Below are positions 4,924 to 31,998 of a stretch of 33,271 bases of DNA, in pieces. Source of the stretch: Fibrobacterota bacterium (GTDB lineage: Bacteria > Fibrobacterota > OXYB2-FULL-49-7 > JAEUSG01); the NCBI GenBank assembly GCA_016788315.1, contig JAEUSG010000388.1, positions 1 through 33,271 of the forward strand, given 5' to 3'. The translations under genes and the position numbers were made by a program. The notes under the pieces are model-generated. The model saw only the letters and a list, made by a program, of their open reading frames with translations. It had not been told where the DNA came from and did not search any database. The number at the start of each line of letters is the position of its first letter. Positions within the stretch are counted from its first letter, which is position 1.

Positions 4924-7026
4924 CTAGCGCAGTAACAATAGCTTTCTGTTTGCATGATAATCTCCTGCTGTAAATTGCGCGATATATACACCGGGAGAGA
5001 GGCTTTTTCTTGAAAGGTTTATAGAATAATTTCCACCATTTTTATGTTCATCCATTGCGTGTGAAATAAGTCGTCCGCAAATGTCATAAACATTTATAGA
5101 GACCCGCGCTGGTTCAGAGAGCTTAAAATTAATTAACCCGCTGCCTGTTGGTATTAATAAGATTGGTTCTGAGGCAGATTTTAGATGTGAAACGGACAAC
5201 GGAGGTTTCTCCATATCCGGTTTTGGCGCTTTATCGACACCATTGCCAAGAAAAAAACTTAGATGAGGAGGTTGATTATAGGATGATTGCTCCGCTGAAA
5301 CTCCAGCACGATAGCCGGGATCGTGCATAAGAGTATAAAGACGGTTGGTTGTTGGAATAATCGTAGTATAAAGATAAAGTTTTGAAGCACCATCATGGAG
5401 TATGACTTCTTCCCTCCAATCACCTAATAGATCGGCCGATATATTAGGAGTTGACTTTGTTCCATTACAGGAATTACCGATCAATGTTACAAGACGCGTT
5501 GTAAAGCTGCCGGTCCACTTGTCAATTTTATTTCCATCAAGAAGTTCGTCCTGAAGATCGCCATCCCAATATACTCGAAAGTTAACCGTACCCTTATTCG
5601 AGGAGAGTTTAAGACCCTTACAGCTGTAAATGCCGTCTGTACAACTTGACCACATCTCATATCCAGGAGAACTGCTGTCTATATCAGCAGCTATTCCCCG
5701 TCCAACATCCGAATTTTCCGTCACTTTATAGCCCCATAATACAGCGCCGGTAACTGCATCTGCCATATATGAACCATATGATCCGGCCACAACTCCTTCT
5801 CTGACAAGCCATAACTCTTTTCCATTTCTTGATGGATCCAGCTTCCCGATATGTCCAGCATCACCATGCCCCATTCCATTAGCAAATAATAATTTTCCAT
5901 CATCATCGAGTGCGGATGCACCAAAAAAGACTTCATCTTTTCCATCATCGTCAACATCTTCAACCATGATACCGTGGTTTCCTTGATCGCTCATGCTTCC
6001 GTACCCGGTAGTTTTCCGTGAATCAACTGACCAACGCTCTGTCAGTTTCCCGTCACGATAGTCCCATGCCGTACATGTTAGACGGTAATAGTATCCCCTT
6101 TGAAAGATTATACTGGGACGCTTTCCGTCAAGCCATGCGGTTGCCGAATTAAATCTATCTACTCTGTTTCCGTAATCATCACCCCAATTGGACTTCAAAT
6201 AGCTGCCGCGTGCAACTACAAAATTTGCTGTAGCCATCTCTTTCCCGGTTTTCCCATTAAATACAGTCAAATATTCCGGACCGGCAAGAATGTATCCGTC
6301 TAAGTTTCGGTAATCGACAGAATCAGTATCTTCGGCTGCTGGTCCAAGATTTAAATATGTACCTGTGCCATCCTTCGTACCTGGTGCTGTTTTACAAACA
6401 ACTTCAGCAAATCCATCTCCATCGTAATCATAAACCTGGTGCTGGGTGTAATGAGCACCTCCACGTATATTGACGCCTAGATCTACTTTCCATAAACAGG
6501 TTCCATCCAGCTTGTATGCGTGAAGGTAAACTTTGTCAACGAAACCGGATAGCGAATTGTCCTTTGTGTTGTTAGGGTCATATTTGACAACAAGCTCATA
6601 TTCACCATCTCCGTCCAGATCACCCACATTAATATCATTCGGAGCATAAATCGGTGAAGGCTGCTGAAGATTTATAGTCAGACAATTAGATGCCCATACT
6701 GAAACTTCTTTTGAAGAAACCGTTTCAATGTTATTTATTACGGATCGAACACTGTACTTCGCCTGTGCACTTCCATTAGAGTCGGTAAAGTTTGAAGCAC
6801 CCGATATTGGAACTGTATTTATTTTACTGGAACCTCTATAAATATTAAACAAGATATTATCGGGATCATTTCCGAAAATACGCCAACTTAGGAATACTTT
6901 GGAACCACCTGCATTGACAGCTACGAGCCCTCGATCCAATGTTTCCATCTGGCGCTGTGGGAAAACTTGTATGAATGTTAAACAGATGAATACAATTACA
7001 ATAATTTTATTTGCTGAGTTTTTCAT
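4924..7026 (-). CDS. Secreted rhamnogalacturonan lyase, PL11-like, with sorting tail
   Basis: Probable rhamnogalacturonan I lyase (YesW/YesX type), which cleaves the rhamnose-galacturonate backbone by beta-elimination. The signal peptide (about 1-23) is followed by RQMETLDRGLVAV and VFLSWRIFGND, the characteristic PL11 N-terminus. The propeller has repeated acidic calcium-binding loops, for example GDLDGDGEYELV and YDYDGDGFAEVVCKTA, plus EDVDDDGKDEVFFG and SADLLGDWREEVI. At 700 aa it is the family core plus a C-terminal sorting module (about 620-700, ending SPGVYIAQF...KLLLLR). No good ribosome binding site precedes the ATG at 7026, but the start immediately begins the signal peptide. Same strand as the pectate lyase, 337 bp upstream of it; together they attack smooth and hairy pectin regions. 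Confidence 0.93.
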   Translation of the reverse strand: MKNSANKIIVIVFICLTFIQVFPQRQMETLDRGLVAVNAGGSKVFLSWRIFGNDPDNILFNIYRGSSKINTVPISGASNFTDSNGSAQAKYSVRSVINNIETVSSKEVSVWASNCLTINLQQPSPIYAPNDINVGDLDGDGEYELVVKYDPNNTKDNSLSGFVDKVYLHAYKLDGTCLWKVDLGVNIRGGAHYTQHQVYDYDGDGFAEVVCKTAPGTKDGTGTYLNLGPAAEDTDSVDYRNLDGYILAGPEYLTVFNGKTGKEMATANFVVARGSYLKSNWGDDYGNRVDRFNSATAWLDGKRPSIIFQRGYYYRLTCTAWDYRDGKLTERWSVDSRKTTGYGSMSDQGNHGIMVEDVDDDGKDEVFFGASALDDDGKLLFANGMGHGDAGHIGKLDPSRNGKELWLVREGVVAGSYGSYMADAVTGAVLWGYKVTENSDVGRGIAADIDSSSPGYEMWSSCTDGIYSCKGLKLSSNKGTVNFRVYWDGDLQDELLDGNKIDKWTGSFTTRLVTLIGNSCNGTKSTPNISADLLGDWREEVILHDGASKLYLYTTIIPTTNRLYTLMHDPGYRAGVSAEQSSYNQPPHLSFFLGNGVDKAPKPDMEKPPLSVSHLKSASEPILLIPTGSGLINFKLSEPARVSINVYDICGRLISHAMDEHKNGGNYSINLSRKSLSPGVYIAQFTAGDYHANRKLLLLR

Positions 7027-7102
7027 ATATCTATGTCAATATATGAAGCCATTTCCCTCGAAAACAAGTCATTTGTACCGGCACTGCTAAAAACGTTAAT
7101 AT

Positions 7103-22553: not shown

Positions 22554-24344
22554 CTACAGGATCAGACGAAGTATACGAGTCTCTCGTCCTGCGTCACAGT
22601 GGATGAAATAAATTCCTGCTGCATCGGGAATCCCTGCTCTCATTTTATAAAACACACGGTCTGTGCTCCTGCCGGATAGGGCAAAGCTGCCATGTTTGCG
22701 GCCGCGGATGTCATACAGTGCCGGCGGGCGATTCAGCAACTGCGGGGCGGTGACCCATATTTCATTGCCGTAAAGGCGGGCGCTCCATATTGACAGGACC
22801 GTTCCCGGGATGGCTTCCTCTCCCGAGCTTGTCAGGACGGTAACAGTCCGGATGGTCATGGCGCTGTCGATGATCGTGTCGTCAGCGGAAATAACCAGTT
22901 TAATTTCATATCTACCTGGGGAGGCGGGGGTCCAGGAACCGAGAATCCCAAGGCGGACCTCTGTTGCCGCAGCAGCTCCCAGCGGTTGCCAGGAACCGCT
23001 GTCCGCAACCCGCCAGAAGAGCTGACGACTTAGCAGGTTGATAGAATTCCGGCTGCCACCATCCACCCAGGCGATACCCAGGATATTCGCTGTCCGCCCG
23101 ACCTGCAGCGTTTCGGGCAGTGATATATTTGCGTTCCAAACCGCGGCAGAGTCGAAGATTTGCGGAGCTTCGTGGAGATAGGTGCCCGTACAGACCAGCC
23201 TCGCTTTACGGGTGACGATGAGTCCAGAGCGGGTGTGGTAGGAGTTCACCAGCCTGACAAGGGTCGAATCCTGCACCGTGAGTTGCGTGCCGATGACGCT
23301 GGTCGTACAATTCACCACAGACGCTCCCATTATCTTACCCACACCGCCCCAACCGTCCACGTTCAGTGACCGGACACTCAGACGGGTATTGCCGAATACC
23401 AGGAAATCCCCGGTCAGGCAGTTCTGGTAACGCACCCCCACAGAACCAGCGTATGTCTCGCCGTAGAAGCCGCCAGGGTAAAAGTTGTACACTTCCACCC
23501 TTGTATTGATAAACCGCAGCGTCCGGTTCAGCAGAGGAAAGGTGAAATCCGGGTAAAGCGTGTGACTGATAATGCCTTCGAGAAAAGCGGAGTCCGGGGG
23601 CGGCATGACCACCAGTACGCCACGCAGATAGCTGTTCCGGAAGGTGACGCTGGAACCAGGGTAGGAGTAGGGGGCCCACTGCAGGTTGCCTATGGTGTCA
23701 AGCGTCAGATTGCAGCGGACGCCGGCGGTTCCAGGGGTGTTCCGGTTCAGCTCCCAGTGCAGGATACGGCCTGTGTCCAGCGTCAGGTCCGCGGTCACTC
23801 CGCTGCCAAAGGCGGGTTCTACAATCGCGGAGTCGCATTGCGCAATGTAAAGAGCTGCCGAATCACGGACGACCCATTCATACGCATAATTGACATTCCG
23901 GATAAATGCGGCAGCACCTTTGTCGACGGTACCGCTGAGCGAAGCGCTTTTGTTGCGGCACTGTTCCATGGAAAAAAGGGCGCCAGCCCCGCTTGAGAAC
24001 ATATTCAGGTGGGTAAAGGTCGTGGTGCAGGCATGCATCCGGAAGGCGCTGCCAGCAGCCGCGCCCCAAACGGATTCATAGCCCTGATTTTCATTCACGA
24101 GAATGGTGCAGGAGTCCAAAAGAATGCTGCCACCCAATGCTGCGGCCAAAGTACCAGTGAGATTGAGATGCGCTTTTTTTGCAATTAATACACCGCCGTA
24201 AACCTGGATATTGCCTGTCCGCGTCCAGGAGCCGCTAATCCGGAGCGTGTCGCCTCGGCTCAGAAGAAGGTCCTGCGCCTGCAGGGTTACTGGAAACAAG
24301 AAGAGAAGGCCCAGCTGGATGATGGCGCTTATTTTTGAAAACAT
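22554..24344 (-). CDS. Secreted beta-helix-like protein with sorting tail
   Basis: 596 aa. The signal peptide (IIQLGLLFLFPVTLQAQ) is followed by a long region of short beta-strand repeats (GNIQVYGGVLIAKKAHLNLT, then LGGSILLDSCTILV), the pattern of a right-handed parallel beta-helix. Later residues (about 400-500, SWQPLGAAAATEVRLGILG and SPGRYEIKLVIS) look like an Ig-like module. The C-terminus (ALYDIRGRKHGSFALS ... AAGIYFIHCDAG) resembles the sorting tail but lacks the usual PNPF start. I see no catalytic motif of a known polysaccharide lyase, so a glycan-binding or non-catalytic role remains possible. Base composition is clearly more GC-rich than in flanking genes, hinting at a different history. 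A GGAG precedes the ATG. Confidence 0.82.
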   Translation of the reverse strand: MFSKISAIIQLGLLFLFPVTLQAQDLLLSRGDTLRISGSWTRTGNIQVYGGVLIAKKAHLNLTGTLAAALGGSILLDSCTILVNENQGYESVWGAAAGSAFRMHACTTTFTHLNMFSSGAGALFSMEQCRNKSASLSGTVDKGAAAFIRNVNYAYEWVVRDSAALYIAQCDSAIVEPAFGSGVTADLTLDTGRILHWELNRNTPGTAGVRCNLTLDTIGNLQWAPYSYPGSSVTFRNSYLRGVLVVMPPPDSAFLEGIISHTLYPDFTFPLLNRTLRFINTRVEVYNFYPGGFYGETYAGSVGVRYQNCLTGDFLVFGNTRLSVRSLNVDGWGGVGKIMGASVVNCTTSVIGTQLTVQDSTLVRLVNSYHTRSGLIVTRKARLVCTGTYLHEAPQIFDSAAVWNANISLPETLQVGRTANILGIAWVDGGSRNSINLLSRQLFWRVADSGSWQPLGAAAATEVRLGILGSWTPASPGRYEIKLVISADDTIIDSAMTIRTVTVLTSSGEEAIPGTVLSIWSARLYGNEIWVTAPQLLNRPPALYDIRGRKHGSFALSGRSTDRVFYKMRAGIPDAAGIYFIHCDAGRETRILRLIL

Positions 24345-24410
24345 GGATTGGCTCCGCGTAAAAAGCTGATTGACTGATAGGCCATTAAACAGGATCCGTA
24401 TACGATACTA

Positions 24411-24540
24411 CGATCACTGTAACGGATATGAACAACAATATATCATGTCAATTTTCTCAAAAACAATCATTTACGCAAACGGCGCTGTATCAAAACATCC
24501 AACCCCTGCAGAAAGCGTTAACGATTTATCTTGTCAAATT
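24411..24540 (-). pseudogene. Decayed 3' fragment of a second DUF188 (YaiI-like) gene
   Basis: This stretch aligns with 30164-30319, the 3' end and downstream region of the intact DUF188 gene. The first 40 aligned bases from 24431 show 4 differences and the 66 bases ending at 24540 show 6; about 24 bp are missing near 24474. The reading frame gives FDKINR, a stop codon, then RFLQGLDVLIQRRLR, so it is inactivated. The match ends at 24540; the next part of the gene reappears at 28548. Confidence 0.85.
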
Positions 24541-24607
24541 TCGAAATATCATCACATCAGACCAAAATACCTACAGATTTATTTGAAGTTATTGCATTAA
24601 ATTATCA

Positions 24608-26926
24608 TTAAACGATAATCGTGTTGCTTTTACGCGGGTTTTTTCGAACCTCGTTGGGGTTGATACCGAGCTTTTTGAAGCCGTAATAAACAGTTCGTCG
24701 TGATACTCCTATAGCATCAGCGATATCGCGTATTACACCCCGGTAACGAACAAGAAGCATGAGAGCCTCTTCTCTGCTTAGTTCAAAAGGGGTCTTTTTT
24801 TTACGATTGTCCGTTGATAACGGGGTGTTCAAGGTTTGGTCAGCTTTTAAGTCAAGATCCGTTGTTCCGATTTGTCCGTTGGAGGTAAAAATGACAGCTC
24901 TTTCAAGCACATTTCTGAGTTCGCGCACATTTCCAGGCCAGGAGTAGGCATACAGTTTTTTGTATCCATCGGCCGTAATTCCGACGATGTTTCTATGATG
25001 ACTTTTTGAGAATTCCTGAATAAATTCCCTGCATAGTTCAGGCAGATCATCTAGTCGTTGTCTAAGTGGAGGCAGGTGAATTGGCACAACCGCCATCCGA
25101 TAATAGAGATCTTCTCTGAAAAGACCCTTTGAAACCATGTCGCTCAGATTCGCATTACTCGCGGCAATCAGGCGAATGTCCAGTTGAATGGGCTTTGTTC
25201 CACCAATTCGCATTATGGAAAAATCCTGAAGAAACTGCAGCAACTTGGTCTGTGTTTCATGAGTCAGATTACCCACTTCGTCTAAAAAGAGTGTGCCCTG
25301 TTCAGCCTGTTCAAACAGGCCCGTATGAGAATGGTAAGCTCCGGTAAATGCCCCTTTTTCGTGACCGAATAACTGACTTTCCATAAGTGTTTTTGGTAAA
25401 ACCGAGCAGTCAACTTTGATGAAAGGCCCCTTTGCATAAGGGCTTCGGCTATGGATGTGTCTGGCCAATATCTCTTTACCTGTCCCGGTTTCCCCTTGTA
25501 AAAGCACAGATACTTTTGTTACAGCAATCCGTTCTGCCTTTTCCTTAAGAATACTTGCAGCTTTACCAGAACCTATGAATTGCGATTTTGAGCGTTCGTA
25601 TCGTGAGGCCAGGTAACGATAACGCTGCTCCGCGGAATTCAGCCGGGTTTGGAGATCTGTTACTTCTGTGAGATGATACCCTGACAATTCACCGTTCTGA
25701 CCATTCAAATGAAAGCTCATAAACGGATTGATTAGAAAGAAGTGTCCACCTTCTCCGGCTTTGACCATAAACTGCTCATTTTTTACTGACGCATCGGAAG
25801 GCCGGACAGATACGGCGATAGATTTTAGAACGCATCTTCCTCCGGGGCGCAGGAAGAGAGTAAGCAATGTTGTGCCCCGGTTCAGAAAGTCATGGTCGTG
25901 GAAGCCGAAGATCCTTTGTTCTTTTTTGTAAACAAGAAAGCTGTCGCGTGATTTGAAATAAGTCAATTGTTGAGTTGCGGGAAAAGCTGTAATAGGAAGA
26001 GGGCATCCGGCAATAACAAAGCCGCATTTTTTTAGCAGCATCCGCTTATTTTTTATGTCCGGTCCAAGTCGATATCCGAAGAAGTCGTAATCAAGCATAG
26101 GGCCAGCCTCGTCACCGAATACCACTCCTGGCAGATCCGTGCTTTCTTGCTTTAGGTTTAGGTGGATGGCGACATCTGTTGTATTAATATCGGGGCGGAA
26201 AGGTAGAACCAGATACGAACTTTCATCATTTCCAGCAACCCATTCGAAACCATCAGCTGTGCAAGTTATGGTTCCTCCACCGCATGGTTTCAGCTCTCTT
26301 ACAGCCGAAATGTTATTGGTATCGAATTCACAAACAGTAGTCATCTTTAGTTTGAAAGGGGGAGCTGTTTTCGAGAGAATCTCTTCCTGAAGTGCCTGCG
26401 GGGTTGGAGAGAGAAGTTCAGAAACAGGTAGTCCAAGCAGGTGGCCGGGTGTTTTGTAGCGGTCTGAGAATGGGCTGAAAAAAGTATGGTTAAAGCCAGC
26501 CACTTTCTGAGAATTATCCAGGTAAAGAATACCGCCAGATGACATTTCTATAGTTTTGGGAAGTATGCCGGAAGGAGTTACCACACCATGCAGACGCTTG
26601 TTATCCTGAGGTATAAGTTTGAGTGTGACCACCGGCAGGTTTGTATAGAAGGGGTTGGGCTGTTCGCGGATGTCAAATGTGTCGGAGTATCCGTATAAAA
26701 CAGATTTTTCGGCTGCAAGTTTTGCCAGATCTGTCGAGGCGTCAATTCTGAACATTTTGCGGATGTTACCGGCTTTTCTTATTTGTGTGGCAATAAAATA
26801 GAGGTGTTCAAAGTTTGCATCTGAATCTTCAATAACATTTCCATCTACATCTAATAATAAAATGAGATGATGGTTTAATGCCCGGTAAGCAGGATTATTT
26901 TTTGTGAAAATTATATTGTTGTCCAT
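24608..26926 (-). CDS. Sigma-54-dependent transcriptional activator with PAS-like and jelly-roll-like sensor regions
   Basis: 772-aa enhancer-binding protein. The AAA+ domain (about 448-680) has Walker A GETGTGKE (478-485), the sigma-54 contact loop GAFTGA (525-530) and Walker B TLFLDE (545-550). A Fis-type helix-turn-helix (RDIADAIGVSRRTVYYGFK) lies near the C-terminus. The N-terminus has two PAS-like stretches (about 15-110 and 120-190). Residues about 215-380 (DGFEWVAGNDESSYLVLPF ... RIFGFHDHDFLNRGTTLLTLFLRPGG) look like a concanavalin/laminin-G-type beta-sandwich; this is judged from strand pattern only. A coiled coil (about 415-445) links to the AAA+ part. It is divergent from a secreted kelch gene, and sigma-54-like promoters occur at several secreted-protein genes, its likely targets. 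No signal peptide is present, so it is cytoplasmic. Confidence 0.92.
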   Translation of the reverse strand: MDNNIIFTKNNPAYRALNHHLILLLDVDGNVIEDSDANFEHLYFIATQIRKAGNIRKMFRIDASTDLAKLAAEKSVLYGYSDTFDIREQPNPFYTNLPVVTLKLIPQDNKRLHGVVTPSGILPKTIEMSSGGILYLDNSQKVAGFNHTFFSPFSDRYKTPGHLLGLPVSELLSPTPQALQEEILSKTAPPFKLKMTTVCEFDTNNISAVRELKPCGGGTITCTADGFEWVAGNDESSYLVLPFRPDINTTDVAIHLNLKQESTDLPGVVFGDEAGPMLDYDFFGYRLGPDIKNKRMLLKKCGFVIAGCPLPITAFPATQQLTYFKSRDSFLVYKKEQRIFGFHDHDFLNRGTTLLTLFLRPGGRCVLKSIAVSVRPSDASVKNEQFMVKAGEGGHFFLINPFMSFHLNGQNGELSGYHLTEVTDLQTRLNSAEQRYRYLASRYERSKSQFIGSGKAASILKEKAERIAVTKVSVLLQGETGTGKEILARHIHSRSPYAKGPFIKVDCSVLPKTLMESQLFGHEKGAFTGAYHSHTGLFEQAEQGTLFLDEVGNLTHETQTKLLQFLQDFSIMRIGGTKPIQLDIRLIAASNANLSDMVSKGLFREDLYYRMAVVPIHLPPLRQRLDDLPELCREFIQEFSKSHHRNIVGITADGYKKLYAYSWPGNVRELRNVLERAVIFTSNGQIGTTDLDLKADQTLNTPLSTDNRKKKTPFELSREEALMLLVRYRGVIRDIADAIGVSRRTVYYGFKKLGINPNEVRKNPRKSNTIIV

Positions 26927-26942
26927 ATTTACAATATTATGA

Positions 26943-26980
26943 AAATGTGCGCAAAACGCAATACATTTGGTGCAAATGTG
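26943..26980. promoter_or_regulatory. Repeated AAATGTG motif and dyad between activator and kelch gene
   Basis: AAATGTGCGCAA (from 26943) recurs as AAATGTGAGCAA (from 26974), 31 bp apart. The second copy also forms a perfect dyad ACATTT-GGTGC-AAATGT (26963-26979). The sites lie 17-55 bp upstream of the activator start and 110-150 bp upstream of the kelch start. They could serve both autoregulation and activation of the kelch gene. Confidence 0.45.
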
Positions 26981-27035
26981 AGCAATAATTGAGCGGTATT
27001 TTTAGTAACTCTTTGATATTTAATAAGATAAAAAC

Positions 27036-27050
27036 AGGTACTTTTGTTGA
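27036..27050 (+). promoter_or_regulatory. Degenerate sigma-54-like promoter of the kelch gene
   Basis: AGGTACTTTTGTTGA keeps GG, AC and TTG at the right spacing of a -24/-12 promoter, but the -12 GC is GA. Its position (about 40 bp upstream of the start) and the neighbouring activator make it plausible, yet the missing C weakens it. Confidence 0.3.
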
Positions 27051-27090
27051 TATATGAAATAAAGTATATATTTTAAAATGGAGGAAAACC

Positions 27091-28542
27091 ATGACGCGTA
27101 ATGCAATCTGTTCCGCTTTTGCTCTTCTTTTTTTCATAGCACCACTTTTTGCTTTTCCCAAAAATTCACTTTTATCAACTATATCCGACACAAGCTGGCT
27201 GCGCATTGGCGACTATAATTGCGGCAGAGCATCATGCGATCAGACGCTTGATTACAGCGGAATGGTGTATGATTTTCACAGACACAAGATACTCCTTTTC
27301 GGTGGTGGACATGCGACCGCGATGTGGAATCAAACCGAAGAATTCGATCTAGCAACCTTGACATGGAAGCAGCTCAACATTCCTGACTCCTGTACTTTTT
27401 ATCTTGACAGCACACGCGCATATTTTGGCGACACGGTAATGACGGACACAGGGAGAGTCGTCTGGCCTGCAGGCGGCACCATCGGATATGACGGTGATAA
27501 GCGACCAATCAGCCGTCACACTTATGACCAGTTGGATATGGCAGCTGACACCTGTCTTCTGATAATGTCAGCCACTCAGTGCGACAAGGGCGGTTGTATG
27601 TCCCCGTCACAATGGACAAATTGGGAATATTTTCACGACAGATATGTGTGGGTTTTCGATCCGGTTCGTGTTAGCTGGACAAGACTTTCTCCTGACGCAG
27701 TACCCGCTAACTTTGCTGTAGGTACAGCGCTTGACCCTTCGACAGGTCTGCTCTATATGGCGGGCGGCCGAAATTATGATGTGCATACTTACGACTGGAA
27801 GACCCGCAAAAGGGAGATTGTTGCCTCTTGTCCGGTCGGCTGGGCAAGCTGTCAGGCTATGACCTACAATCCTGTCAACCATTCAATGCTGCTGTTTGCC
27901 GCTGCCAATATATACGAATATGATATTACCGCCAAAACCTGGACTGCAAAAAACCCCCGTGGTACCCATGTCAATTCATATCTTCGGGCCGTATCTTTTG
28001 ATTCTGTTAATCAGGTGTTCGGTGTGATTAATAATGGTGCCTTCAGTTACTACAGTCCATGGACCAATACCTGGTACAGTCTGCCTTTCGATACCTCCCG
28101 TTTCCCGGTAAATCCGGCATTCAATTGTACAGTTTATGATCCTGTCAATAATGTCTATGTCCTTTTAACCTACGGCACCGGTTCGATTCGGTATAAAGGT
28201 TGGACCACCTGGACATACAAGTTCAGTGATACTCCGGGATTATTTCCCGGAACGCGACCTGTGTTGAATGCGTCGGAAAGAGGCATAACCGCCGGTCCCT
28301 TACTAACGATCAGTGTAACACCTAATCCATTCAAAACTGATGTCAGTCTGTATTGCCCGATCGGAAGCGGTGAGGTCGTTATATATTCGGTTGATGGAAA
28401 AGCCGTATGGAGTTCCGCTATCACGTCTGATAAGCGTGAAGTGTTATGGAACCCCGGTGTGACGGCATCCGGTCTTTATATTGCAGTATATTCGGTTGTG
28501 GGGAAAGGCAGCGTTTCAAAACCGTTGTATCTGATGAAATAA
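27091..28542 (+). CDS. Secreted kelch-repeat protein with sorting tail
   Basis: 483 aa. Signal peptide (AFALLFFIAPLFAF), then one kelch-type propeller (about 45-385): MVYDFHRHKILLFGGGHAT, EEFDLATLTWKQL, SRHTYDQLDM, WVFDPVRVSWTRLS and YEYDITAKTWTAK. The SRHTYD block and FGGGH pattern closely match the truncated protein at 1-1761, so the two are paralogues. The C-terminal tail (VTPNPFKTDVSLYCP ... GLYIAVYSV) is the sorting domain. GGAGG precedes the ATG at 27091. It is divergent from the sigma-54 activator, a likely regulator. A piece of a decayed DUF188 gene begins only 6 bp after its stop. Confidence 0.9.
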   Translation: MTRNAICSAFALLFFIAPLFAFPKNSLLSTISDTSWLRIGDYNCGRASCDQTLDYSGMVYDFHRHKILLFGGGHATAMWNQTEEFDLATLTWKQLNIPDSCTFYLDSTRAYFGDTVMTDTGRVVWPAGGTIGYDGDKRPISRHTYDQLDMAADTCLLIMSATQCDKGGCMSPSQWTNWEYFHDRYVWVFDPVRVSWTRLSPDAVPANFAVGTALDPSTGLLYMAGGRNYDVHTYDWKTRKREIVASCPVGWASCQAMTYNPVNHSMLLFAAANIYEYDITAKTWTAKNPRGTHVNSYLRAVSFDSVNQVFGVINNGAFSYYSPWTNTWYSLPFDTSRFPVNPAFNCTVYDPVNNVYVLLTYGTGSIRYKGWTTWTYKFSDTPGLFPGTRPVLNASERGITAGPLLTISVTPNPFKTDVSLYCPIGSGEVVIYSVDGKAVWSSAITSDKREVLWNPGVTASGLYIAVYSVVGKGSVSKPLYLMK

Positions 28543-28547
28543 CAAAA

Positions 28548-28642
28548 GTGAAAATGCGGAGGTTCGCCGGAGAATATACAAGCCTCGCGCATTGTCGTCA
28601 TTATCTCTCTGCTGGCGAGTGCTGATCCGTTATTCTCTTCTG
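28548..28642 (-). pseudogene. Decayed central fragment of a second DUF188 (YaiI-like) gene
   Basis: Aligns without gaps to 30312-30406 of the intact DUF188 gene; 13 differences were counted in the 88 bases from 28555 (about 85% identity). In the same minus frame it still reads EENNGSALASREIMTTMREA, against EENIGSALASREIMATMREA in the intact gene. The sequence on the N-terminal side is missing. The piece continues where the fragment at 24411-24540 stops. Confidence 0.85.
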
Positions 28643-28688: not shown

Positions 28689-30119
28689 TTACTGGGCTAG
28701 ATTCATGTCAAGAGGGGGTTTGCGGGAACCAATAAGAGGTTCGTATTTAAACTCTTTTCCCCTCTTTTCATCGAATTCGGTTCTGACCTTTTTAAGAAGA
28801 TTTTTGTCCGAAATAAGATCGACTGTTGTGAGAGACAATACCTTGGCGGCATTGATCATTCCCAGAAAACCTGTCCTATGACCGGAAGCTGCTACGGCCT
28901 GCCATGTGTGTTCGCCGGTGCCAGGCACCCAGCAGGCGGTTGAAAGCCCCGATGATGGTGTGACCCAGCTGACATCAGCAACATCAGTTGAGCCATAAGT
29001 TCTGCGTCCGGTTGCAAAAGGCTGGATCTCTTCCACCTGTTTAATCCAGTCGGATTTTACAGAGTCGAATGTTCCAACAATTGAATCTGAAAAAGCCTTT
29101 GCAATCTCATCATACTTGACACCACCGATTTTTATCAGATTGGAATACAACGCTCTTGCAATCGTTTCGTTTGGAAGTGAAGGGTATGTTGCGCTGATCA
29201 TTTCACATTCTACTGTCGTTCCGGTTCCAATCGCCGCACCATTTGCAGCGTTAGTTGCCCTTTCGAAAAGCCCACGGAGTTCTGATACATCAAAGTGGCG
29301 GAAGTAATAGTAAACTTCAGCAAAATCAGGAACTACATTTGGTGCGAGTCCTCCATTTGTAATGACATAGTGAATTCTGGAATCACCCGATATGTGTTCA
29401 CGCATTAGATTCACCATCATGTTCATTGCTTCAACTCCGTCAAGGGCAGATCTGCCCTTTTCAGGTGCAATCGCAGCATGAGAGGATTTGCCCGAAAAAC
29501 GATACTTAGCCGAAATATTTCCGGTATGAGTCACTGTTGATGCTCCGTTAGAAGTACCCGGATGCCATCTCAAAACAGCATCTGCATCATCAAAGAGACC
29601 ATCCCGCACCATGTAAACTTTTCCAGCTCCCCCCTCTTCAGCCGGTGTGCCGTATAATCTCACAGTGCCATTGCTCCTGCTATTGACAAGCCACTCTTTA
29701 ACTGCAATCGCTGCTGCTGCTGATGCAACACCGAAAAGGTTGTGTCCGCATCCATGACCGAAACTGTTCTTTGTTAATGGTTTACGATATGGCACATTGT
29801 CCTGAGAGAGTCCCGGCAGCGCATCATATTCGGCTATAAGCCCTATAACAGGCTTTCCCGAGCCAAATTCAGCAACAAATGCAGTTGGAATTCCTGCAAC
29901 ACCACTCCTTACAGTGAATCCTGCATCCTTCAGGGCAGCAGCAAGCAACCCTGCACTTTTCGTTTCCATGTAGCCAGGTTCCGGATTACTCCATATTTCA
30001 TATGCCATCTTTTCATAAACAGTCCTGTTCTTTTCGATATGGTAAACAGGCAGACTATTTTTCTCTGCACTCAGAGATATGAACAGCAACAGTATTAATG
30101 ATATGATGTATGCAGACAT
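28689..30119 (-). CDS. Exported M20-family amidohydrolase (AbgB-like)
   Basis: 476 aa. Closest in pattern to p-aminobenzoyl-glutamate/indole-acetyl-amino-acid hydrolases of peptidase family M20D, which release an amino acid from an acyl group. A signal peptide (AYIISLILLLFISLSA) precedes the enzyme, so it acts outside the cytoplasm, unlike most relatives. Metal-site motifs are AEYDALPG (96-103), GHGCGHN (121-127), the Glu pair TPAEEGG (158-164) and RWHPG with His186; the dimerisation lid region starts SGKSSHAAIAPEKGRSALDG. It is full length and has no sorting tail. It lies between a DUF188 remnant and the intact DUF188 gene. The substrate is unknown. Confidence 0.9.
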   Translation of the reverse strand: MSAYIISLILLLFISLSAEKNSLPVYHIEKNRTVYEKMAYEIWSNPEPGYMETKSAGLLAAALKDAGFTVRSGVAGIPTAFVAEFGSGKPVIGLIAEYDALPGLSQDNVPYRKPLTKNSFGHGCGHNLFGVASAAAAIAVKEWLVNSRSNGTVRLYGTPAEEGGAGKVYMVRDGLFDDADAVLRWHPGTSNGASTVTHTGNISAKYRFSGKSSHAAIAPEKGRSALDGVEAMNMMVNLMREHISGDSRIHYVITNGGLAPNVVPDFAEVYYYFRHFDVSELRGLFERATNAANGAAIGTGTTVECEMISATYPSLPNETIARALYSNLIKIGGVKYDEIAKAFSDSIVGTFDSVKSDWIKQVEEIQPFATGRRTYGSTDVADVSWVTPSSGLSTACWVPGTGEHTWQAVAASGHRTGFLGMINAAKVLSLTTVDLISDKNLLKKVRTEFDEKRGKEFKYEPLIGSRKPPLDMNLAQ

Positions 30120-30209
30120 TTATGATCTTTTTTTTAAACCATCAAATCAGCTTCAGTATTTTCCGATCTCTGTATCAGTGAGTAACATCAATATATCATG
30201 TCTATTCTC

Positions 30210-30692
30210 TCAAAAACAACCATCTTTACTTTTGCTACCTTGAGACACAACACGCAAACGGCGCTGTATTAAAACATCCAGCCCCTGCAGAAAACGTGAA
30301 CGATCTCTCTTGTCAAATTGCGGTGGCCCGCCGGAAAACATGCCGGCTTCGCGCATTGTCGCCATAATCTCTCTGCTGGCGAGTGCCGATCCGATATTCT
30401 CTTCTGTAAACAGATTTCCTTTGTGGTCTATTACGGATGCGCCCTTCTTCAACGAGCGGGATGCGAGAGGAATATCAGCGGTGATTACAATGTCATTTTC
30501 AGAAACATTCTCTGCAATCCAATCATCTGCTGCATCCAGATTGTTTTCAACAACTACAAGCGTCAGCCACGGAAAAGTTGGTATCCGCATCCAGGAATTT
30601 GCAACGAGAGTTACTTCTAGTTTATGCCTTTCAGCAACTCGATATGTTTCCTGTTTCACAGGACAGGCATCGCCATCAATAAAAATATGCAT
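30210..30692 (-). CDS. DUF188/UPF0178 (YaiI/YqxD) family protein
   Basis: 160 aa, the full family length. Signature N-terminus MHIFIDGDACPVK, then VITADIPLASRSLKKGA and DHKGNLFTEENI, which together define the DUF188 family; members are thought to have a PIN/NYN-like fold with acidic residues for metal, function not established. The C-terminus ends KSKDGCF. Intact copy; two fragments of a related copy survive at 24411-24540 and 28548-28642. It is on the same strand as the M20 gene, 90 bp upstream of it. Confidence 0.93.
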   Translation of the reverse strand: MHIFIDGDACPVKQETYRVAERHKLEVTLVANSWMRIPTFPWLTLVVVENNLDAADDWIAENVSENDIVITADIPLASRSLKKGASVIDHKGNLFTEENIGSALASREIMATMREAGMFSGGPPQFDKRDRSRFLQGLDVLIQRRLRVVSQGSKSKDGCF

Positions 30693-30787
30693 CCTTTAAG
30701 ATACATATTTAACTTACGTTAAGGCTTAATGGGGAAAAATGAATAAAGGACTCAATTTTTATATGGGAAAGGTTGTTTTTTAGAGAA

Positions 30788-30818
30788 TTGACATAATATA
30801 TTGATAAAAAATTAAAAT
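30788..30818 (+). promoter_or_regulatory. Candidate sigma-70 promoter of the PstS-like gene
   Basis: A perfect TTGACA (30788-30793) is followed after 18-19 bp by TTAAAA/TAAAAT, about 12 bp before the ATG at 30829. The very short leader or long spacer makes this tentative; a GAGG lies 6 nt before the start codon. Confidence 0.35.
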
Positions 30819-30828
30819 AGAGGTATAT

Positions 30829-31998
30829 ATGCGTCCAGTTTATTCCATACTTATTATTATCTTCTGCGGGGTAGTTTTTGGTGAACAGATCTTGTCATCA
30901 AATTCTAATGACACACCATCATTCACACGTCAAACCTATCCAAAAGTTGATGGTTCAACTGTAACTATTCCACTTTCTGTTGCAGTAGCCGCACGTCTAA
31001 CCGGACTACCAAAAGATACCGTATCACGTTTTGTAATTCATAACAAAACTCATCAGGCATATTTGAATTTAGTAAACCGAAGGACAGATCTGATTTTTGT
31101 TACAAGCCCATCGGCTGAAGAACTGGATTCTGCCAGGGCAAAAGGCATTACACTTGAAGTCGTTCCAATAGTAAGTGAGGGATTTGTATTTCTAACCGGG
31201 CGTGACAACACTGTAGATAATCTGACATTACAGCAGATTGTTGATATTTACTCAGGGAAAATCACAAACTGGTCACAGGTTGGCGGATACGATACTATAA
31301 TTAGGGCATATCAGCGTCCGGTTAATTCAGGGAGTCAAACTGGATTTCTTGATTTGGTAATGAAGGATGTTACTCCTGTTACACCGCCTCCCTCTCTTGT
31401 TGTAGCACAAATGGATGAATTAATAGATATGGTCAGTTTGTATACAACTGTACCAAATGCTATCGGTTATACATATTACTATTTTATCAAATCAATGTAT
31501 GTTAATCCAAGAACTAAACTTCTAAAAATAAACGGGGTCCTTCCCGACACTTCAACTATTCGTAATATATCTTACCCCATTACAACTGCTTATTATGCTG
31601 TGTATCGCAACGATGAACCTGAAACGTCAAATGTAAGAAAAGTTGTAAAGTGGATACTAGCTGAACAAGGTCAGAATCTATGCGATTCGCTCGGATATGT
31701 AAAAGTAGGTAAATCAAATAAAGCTGAGTCATCGTACAAACTAAAACAAACGGCATTAACCTGTAAAATCAGCCCAAATCCTGTAAGTGGGCTTGTTAAC
31801 ATTTCATGGCCCAAGAACTCTGAAAATGGAATTCTGACTATTTCCCGTCTTGATGGCAAAGTAATTTTTACAAAGAACATTGCAGAAAATCTAACGACCG
31901 CATCATGGAATAGTGCAGGTTACCCACACGGTTTGTATTTGGTAAATATTAAATTCAGCAGAACCGCCTATTCCGTTCGGATTCTATTGGTCCGTTAA
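30829..31998 (+). CDS. PstS-like substrate-binding protein with C-terminal sorting tail
   Basis: 389 aa. A signal peptide (YSILIIIFCGVVFG) is followed by a phosphate-binding-protein-like domain (PBP_like_2 type, about 30-295): LTLQQIVDIYSGKITNWSQV is characteristic, as are RPVNSGSQTGF at the ligand site and the preceding FVFLTGRDN strand. The last about 80 residues (CKISPNPVSGLVNISWP ... YPHGLYLVNI ... RILLVR) are the same type of sorting tail seen on the secreted glycan-active proteins here. No pst transporter genes are adjacent. A cell-surface scavenging or sensing role for phosphate or another anion is possible; the ligand is unknown. Confidence 0.87.
   Translation: MRPVYSILIIIFCGVVFGEQILSSNSNDTPSFTRQTYPKVDGSTVTIPLSVAVAARLTGLPKDTVSRFVIHNKTHQAYLNLVNRRTDLIFVTSPSAEELDSARAKGITLEVVPIVSEGFVFLTGRDNTVDNLTLQQIVDIYSGKITNWSQVGGYDTIIRAYQRPVNSGSQTGFLDLVMKDVTPVTPPPSLVVAQMDELIDMVSLYTTVPNAIGYTYYYFIKSMYVNPRTKLLKINGVLPDTSTIRNISYPITTAYYAVYRNDEPETSNVRKVVKWILAEQGQNLCDSLGYVKVGKSNKAESSYKLKQTALTCKISPNPVSGLVNISWPKNSENGILTISRLDGKVIFTKNIAENLTTASWNSAGYPHGLYLVNIKFSRTAYSVRILLVR

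Follow-up and report, generated by a model that had tools for sequence, protein, structure and literature searches.

A truncated, decayed DUF188 gene copy with an IS91-type ori end, probably split by a 4.0-kb activator/kelch block, in a Fibrobacterota bacterium

Genes and features of the locus

The window, i.e. the whole analysed stretch of 33,271 nucleotides from a Fibrobacterota bacterium, contains an intact gene of the DUF188 family, two fragments resembling this gene and, between the fragments, a block of 4.0 kb with two genes. The features that are discussed in the following are:

7008-7077, + strand: weak IS-end-like remnant, or native promoter (21.6 bits, E 8.6e-4; nhmmer E 7.4e-5)
24373-24472, + strand: predicted IS91-family ori end of the second DUF188 copy, terminus left, body right, internally shortened
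24473-24543, - strand: second DUF188 copy, 3' part, codons ~124-147, with a stop codon (90% identity to 30252-30322)
24541-28547, no strand: 4.0-kb block, putatively inserted, splitting the second DUF188 copy and flanked by two overlapping DUF188 pieces
24608-26926, - strand: sigma-54-dependent activator, 772 aa, intact (Pfam PF00158, E 5.4e-64)
27091-28542, + strand: kelch-like secreted protein, 483 aa, intact, with a C-terminal sorting-type tail and weak Kelch matches below the cut-off
28548-28642, - strand: second DUF188 copy, central part, codons ~95-127, with the variable (ter-side) end at 28642
28689-30119, - strand: M20-family amidohydrolase, intact (TIGR01891, E 1.7e-74), its start codon adjoining the IS end at 30133-30250
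30133-30250, + strand: predicted IS91-family ori end joined to the intact DUF188 gene at its 3' end (nhmmer 30147-30250, E 1.9e-19; 89.9 bits genome-wide)
30210-30692, - strand: DUF188 (YaiI/YqxD, UPF0178), 160 aa, intact (PF02639, E 1e-48; NF001095, 181.7 bits, cut-off 139)
30762-30825, - strand: inverted IS91-type end remnant, 24-bp core with 1 mismatch (39.2 bits)

The intact DUF188 gene, whose GTDB relatives show protein identities of at most 60%, is framed by IS sequence. At its 3' end the IS similarity extends to 30250, which corresponds to codon 148, while DUF188 homologues terminate at about residue 150 and lack the tail that follows residue ~147-148 (VVSQGSKSKDGCF); the last ~13 codons are, as judged from this comparison, IS-derived. 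A terminus-proximal motif, TAAACCATCAAAT, is found at about 30135-30147, and the outermost IS terminus has been lost from this end. The inverted third IS end is situated 5' of DUF188, just upstream of a PBP-like gene at 30829, so that an IS end facing inward is found on either side of the intact gene.

The two genes of the 4.0-kb block are divergent. The kelch-like protein has one full-length paralogue in the genome (contig C667, 37% identity) with no activator beside it, and a search of 120 further genomes of the phylum at a threshold of 1e-15 detected no relatives. Neither a transposase ORF within the block nor copies of its edges elsewhere in the genome were found. The search for the block with other flanks, suggested by a sequence-only reading of this DNA, revealed no full activator/kelch pair in the genome. 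The activator belongs to a large family with 87 matches in this genome (86 besides that of the window), many of them full length at 30-40% identity. The activators in the window and at loci L011-L029 and L130-L147 mostly neighbour, or are divergent from, genes whose secreted products have sorting-type C-termini. In G001, the only other genome of the order compared and a distant one, the activator matches mainly over the catalytic part. An excess of activators on IS-bearing contigs was also considered, but 7 observed versus an estimated ~3 expected by length is not convincing.

The two fragments and their meeting point

The alignment of fragment 1 (24411-24543) with 30164-30322 contains 18 mismatches and one gap of 26 bp (local score 140, shuffle maximum 30), and that of fragment 2 (28548-28642) with 30312-30406 has 84% identity (local score 115, shuffle maximum 25; E 1.4e-7 by protein search). 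These scores uphold the initial observation of two fragments matching the intact gene in the right order and the same orientation. The fragments also meet at one point as claimed, both reaching 30312-30322 with a mutual overlap of 8-11 bp; the stretch 30312-30322 reads GTCAAATTTCG in fragment 1, GTGAAAATGCG in fragment 2 and GTCAAATTGCG in the intact gene. When the 160-aa DUF188 protein was searched against the 5.55-Mb assembly in six frames, the only hits were the intact gene and the two fragments, and this search located no second set of codons 1 to ~94 anywhere in the genome.

Translated in the DUF188 frame, the fragments read EENNGSALASREIMTTMREACIFSGEPPHFH and KFDKINR*RFLQGLDVLIQRRLR, the latter corresponding to QFDKRDRSRFLQGLDVLIQRRLR in the intact gene. 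The stop codon reported in fragment 1 is indeed present in frame (KINR*RFLQ). Furthermore, substitutions hit residues which are conserved among the homologues (GGP to GEP, RDRS to INR*), hence the fragments are regarded as a derived, decayed copy. The second copy is colinear with the intact gene except for the 26-bp deletion and the block that came later. Third codon positions account for 10 of the 15 differences in fragment 2 and for 2 of the 7 in fragment 1; the use of this distribution as a measure of age was dropped, because it fits a recently functional copy and an intact gene diverging under selection alike. By alignment, the fragments are one old truncated pseudogene copy of the neighbouring DUF188 gene, apparently split by the 4.0-kb activator/kelch insertion.

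Insertion of the block into an already present DUF188 piece is the best reading, because the two pieces share a break point and agree in 6/8 bases of their overlap. Since the block interrupts a decayed copy, the block, or a part of it, would have arrived after that copy. The proposal that the block was gained by insertion into the second DUF188 copy is supported in that the pieces meet at one point with order and orientation kept. The accompanying claim of an 8-bp target duplication (GTCAAATT/GTGAAAAT) is suggestive: the overlap of 8-11 bp is present, but only 6/8 bases agree, with P about 0.01 (P = 0.006 for at least 6/8, P = 0.018 for an equal ungapped extension). No site free of the insertion turned up in the comparison with other genomes, which covered the single other member of the order and GTDB DUF188 relatives, all of them distant. 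The reverse order, with an ancestral block beside which the two DUF188 pieces arrived independently, would be consistent with the closeness of the right block edge to the kelch stop codon, only 5 bp beyond it, and with the lack of clear transposon ends (best end-to-end terminal inverted repeat of 7 bp, out of register, P 0.024). Nevertheless, we regard it as very improbable, because it needs breaks within about 10 bp in the same order and orientation, a coincidence of roughly 2% by our estimate, and fragment 2 is without an IS end of its own.

An IS91-family ori end in both DUF188 copies

The left ~100 bp of fragment 1 (including 24411-24470) and the stretch 30164-30250 match as copies of an IS91-family end and not as DUF188 sequence. 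With 24345-24607 as DNA query against the assembly, copies of 24411-24475 were identified on the contigs C127 (two copies), C737, C556, C701 and C637 with 83-93% identity. The 24-bp core ATCAATATATCATGTCAATTCTCT occurs 10 times in the genome with up to 3 mismatches, compared to 0 occurrences of a reversed control, and three of the ten are located in the window at 24434 (+), 30187 (+) and 30805 (-). On C127, C556 and C737, the repeat directly follows the 3' end of a gene for a 492-aa protein, or of a piece of this gene. The protein on C127 shows the Pfam domains Y2_Tnp (PF04986, E 1.3e-24) and Zn_Tnp_IS91 (PF14319, E 2.2e-19) and scores 167 bits against the NCBIfam model NF033538 for IS91 (cut-off 125). 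This position 3' of a gene with IS91 transposase domains identifies the dispersed repeat, on sequence grounds, as the ori end of a multicopy IS91-family element, whose HUH transposase is encoded on other contigs. Integron attC sites or island integration as the source of the repeat were no longer considered after the repeats had been recognised as IS91 ends. The earlier remark that no transposase is visible is true of the window, but the genome holds several IS91-family copies with ends matching fragment 1. Likewise, the IS half of fragment 1 recurs elsewhere as an independent, dispersed repeat, whereas the DUF188 halves are not dispersed.

The IS copies begin at ACTYATAGGAATTTTC...ATGTAAACCACCAAATT, and in seven copies the terminus reads ATAGGAA (ATAGTAA in two)...GTAAACCAC/T. 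In a by-eye comparison, this terminus resembles the reverse complement of the ISCR1 oriIS 22-mer GTGGTTTATACTTCCTATACCC (PMC13023784), in which the spacer is shorter. The ends on C701 and C637 share exactly 141 identical last IS bases and then diverge, which places the terminus and makes it probable that these copies are recent; the IS91-family element has evidently been active. Beside ori, GAGT or AAGT is found at every complete end and CAGT at fragment 1, bases that belong either to the target or to the element. Several IS copies are situated at contig ends of the fragmented assembly.

Further IS91 copies in this genome deserve mention in their own right. Over 349 bp, the copy on C183 and the one at the left end of C556 show 97% identity, and the C556 copy has attached to it the last codons (3' end) of the gene flanking the C183 copy (loci L203, C556:1-1600, and L198, C183:1-5000), which reads as a second putative capture in the same genome and a trace of ter-side read-through. 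At L159:15400-15700, one IS91 copy is inserted into the ori end of another, with the nested ends ACCAAATTACCCAAAG|ACTCGTAGGAA, and two further decayed end-like stretches are seen at L159:15011-15174. Four IS91 copies (among the loci L159:8380-8660, L166 and L197) have sequence in common far upstream of the transposase gene, which in 3/4 of them extends to a GC-rich hairpin, GCAGCCGTTTACGGCTG; the copies on C183, C388 and C556 lack it, and perhaps there are two ter-end versions of one element.

The IS end in fragment 1 is recovered with nhmmer and a model of the genome's IS ends at 24407-24481 (E 4.9e-12), and scores 61.9 bits in the genome-wide model search. The IS-like part extends left to about 24373, where ACTGATAGG at 24373-24381 matches the terminus ACTCATAGG in 8/9 bases (P about 0.001). 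Fragment 1 shows the same IS/DUF188 junction as the intact gene, shortened by the 26-bp deletion, and the presence of the same fusion in both copies argues that the fusion preceded the copying. Left of this terminus, the sequence does not resemble what flanks the intact copy on its left. On the other side, the homology stops abruptly at 28642/30406 (codon ~95), and the sequence right of 28642 has no homology to DUF188 or its upstream region. In IS801 the tetranucleotide on the ter side resembles the target; here the 4-base ends, which are too short for a verdict, are CAGA for fragment 2 (transposase sense) and CAGT on the ori side of fragment 1. The second DUF188 copy has one fixed end at ori and one variable end inside the adjacent DNA, and for this reason was probably never a complete second gene. 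The idea of a duplicated DUF188 gene is therefore to be modified: a second decayed copy exists, but a whole gene is unlikely, as the copy starts at an IS ori terminus and its first ~94 codons are absent. It was probably an element-borne 3' piece, which was inserted, decayed and was then split.

All three solo ends in the window stand upstream of genes, compared to an intergenic base rate of 33%, which is a weak excess, and their outward promoter-like pairs point towards the genes that start at 24344 (-), 30119 (-) and 30829 (+). A related pattern, TTG-N20/21-TATATT(G), is enriched upstream of unrelated genes (upstream regions in the window and L130-L227). TTG-N20/21-TATATT may represent the ordinary promoter type predicted for this organism. 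As the pattern also occurs upstream of unrelated genes, simple promoters may account for the weaker matches on C266 and at 7008-7077, the latter upstream of a gene that starts at 7026 (-).

Proposed history and comparison with IS91/ISCR systems

We consider a history of two events, a one-ended IS91-type copying of a DUF188 piece followed by the 4-kb insertion, to be reasonably probable. In the first step, which is shown by the fusion itself, an IS91 ori end joined the 3' end of DUF188, placing DUF188 where the transposase gene usually stands. In the second step, a HUH transposase acting in trans may have started rolling-circle, one-ended copying at the ori end and into DUF188, stopping at codon ~95; the product, an ori end plus the 3' ~40% of DUF188, would have entered a site flanked by the gene at 22554-24344 and the amidohydrolase gene. 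Subsequently the non-functional piece decayed, as seen from the stop codon, the 26-bp deletion and the changes at conserved residues, and finally, in an order indicated by the interrupted copy, the 4.0-kb sigma-54 activator/kelch segment would have been inserted at GTCAAATT, where 8 bp of target were perhaps duplicated. The copying of DUF188 and the insertion of the block are two separate events, and an agent is visible for the first one only.

There is precedent for such copying in IS801, a member of the IS91 family: in vivo, 26% of the captured insertions were one-ended fragments with the ori end, and a few insertions had recruited 290-1431 nt of neighbouring DNA (PMC3189936). However, the same study attributes the majority of the IS801 fragments in Pseudomonas syringae genomes to rearrangement and not to one-ended transposition (PMC3189936), and for this reason our confidence in the two-event history is kept limited. 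The same finding favours a rival explanation, in which dispersed IS91 ends, serving only as portable homology, recombined or were illegitimately rearranged and gave rise to the extra piece, with deletions afterwards. Three IS ends lie within 6.5 kb in the window, and homology would likewise stop at the IS terminus after such an exchange. But a simple unequal exchange between IS ends would duplicate the intervening amidohydrolase, of which there is no remnant left of fragment 1, and the truncation at codon ~95 needs a second event; hence we hold this explanation to be rather unlikely. Another explanation, already proposed as a tandem duplication, is that the DUF188 region was duplicated in tandem or as a segment, then rearranged and interrupted by an insertion; this would agree with a copy on the same contig, 5.7 kb away and in the same orientation. 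It appears quite improbable, because no neighbouring gene is duplicated alongside the second copy and the flanks are unrelated; moreover, the duplicated unit ends at an IS terminus with no further duplicated sequence on either side, and a second copy of the 5' ~94 codons is missing from the genome.

On the preferred two-event history, the split gene can be read as a record in which a chromosomal gene gained an IS91-type end, gene and end were copied in truncated form, and an insertion followed. The split DUF188 is thus a good fossil of a known process and not a new process. ISCR-like one-ended copying is known mainly from resistance plasmids and from Pseudomonas, and the locus suggests that it shuffles pieces of ordinary genes in a distant lineage too; in addition, the intact DUF188 gene appears to have taken a coding tail from transposon DNA. 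More generally, the solo IS91-type ori ends of this lineage could be movable promoter-plus-origin units, which copy neighbouring genes, set blocks of the activator/kelch type into new sites and thereby add to the expansion of the activators (87 matches), but we regard this generalisation as highly doubtful.

The intact gene is a full member of the DUF188/UPF0178 family (YaiI/YqxD, PF02639), but differs from the homologues by its tail of 13 residues, which is read from IS sequence. Regarding the element, a HUH transposase with the IS91-type zinc domain, as in IS91 and ISCR, is also encoded in this genome, on C127 and outside the window, but it is only ~27-29% identical to the plasmid IS91-family proteins. 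While IS801 targets are of the GAAC/CAAG type, NAGT adjoins the ori end here. Unlike full IS91 and ISCR elements, the window has solo IS ends without transposase, and the copied DNA adjoined a solo ori end, whereas in the IS91/IS801 system it is DNA upstream of ter. The second DUF188 copy corresponds to the one-ended products of the IS801 type, which have a fixed ori end and a variable end carrying neighbouring DNA. As in ISCR1, the ori end of the genome's element is located downstream (3') of the transposase gene and carries an ISCR1-like terminal motif. Moreover, the oriIS of ISCR1 contains functional outward promoters (POUT; PMC6218425), and the IS ends in the window resemble it in this respect as well, since 3/3 copies bear an outward promoter-like pair, TTGTTT-N18-TATATT.
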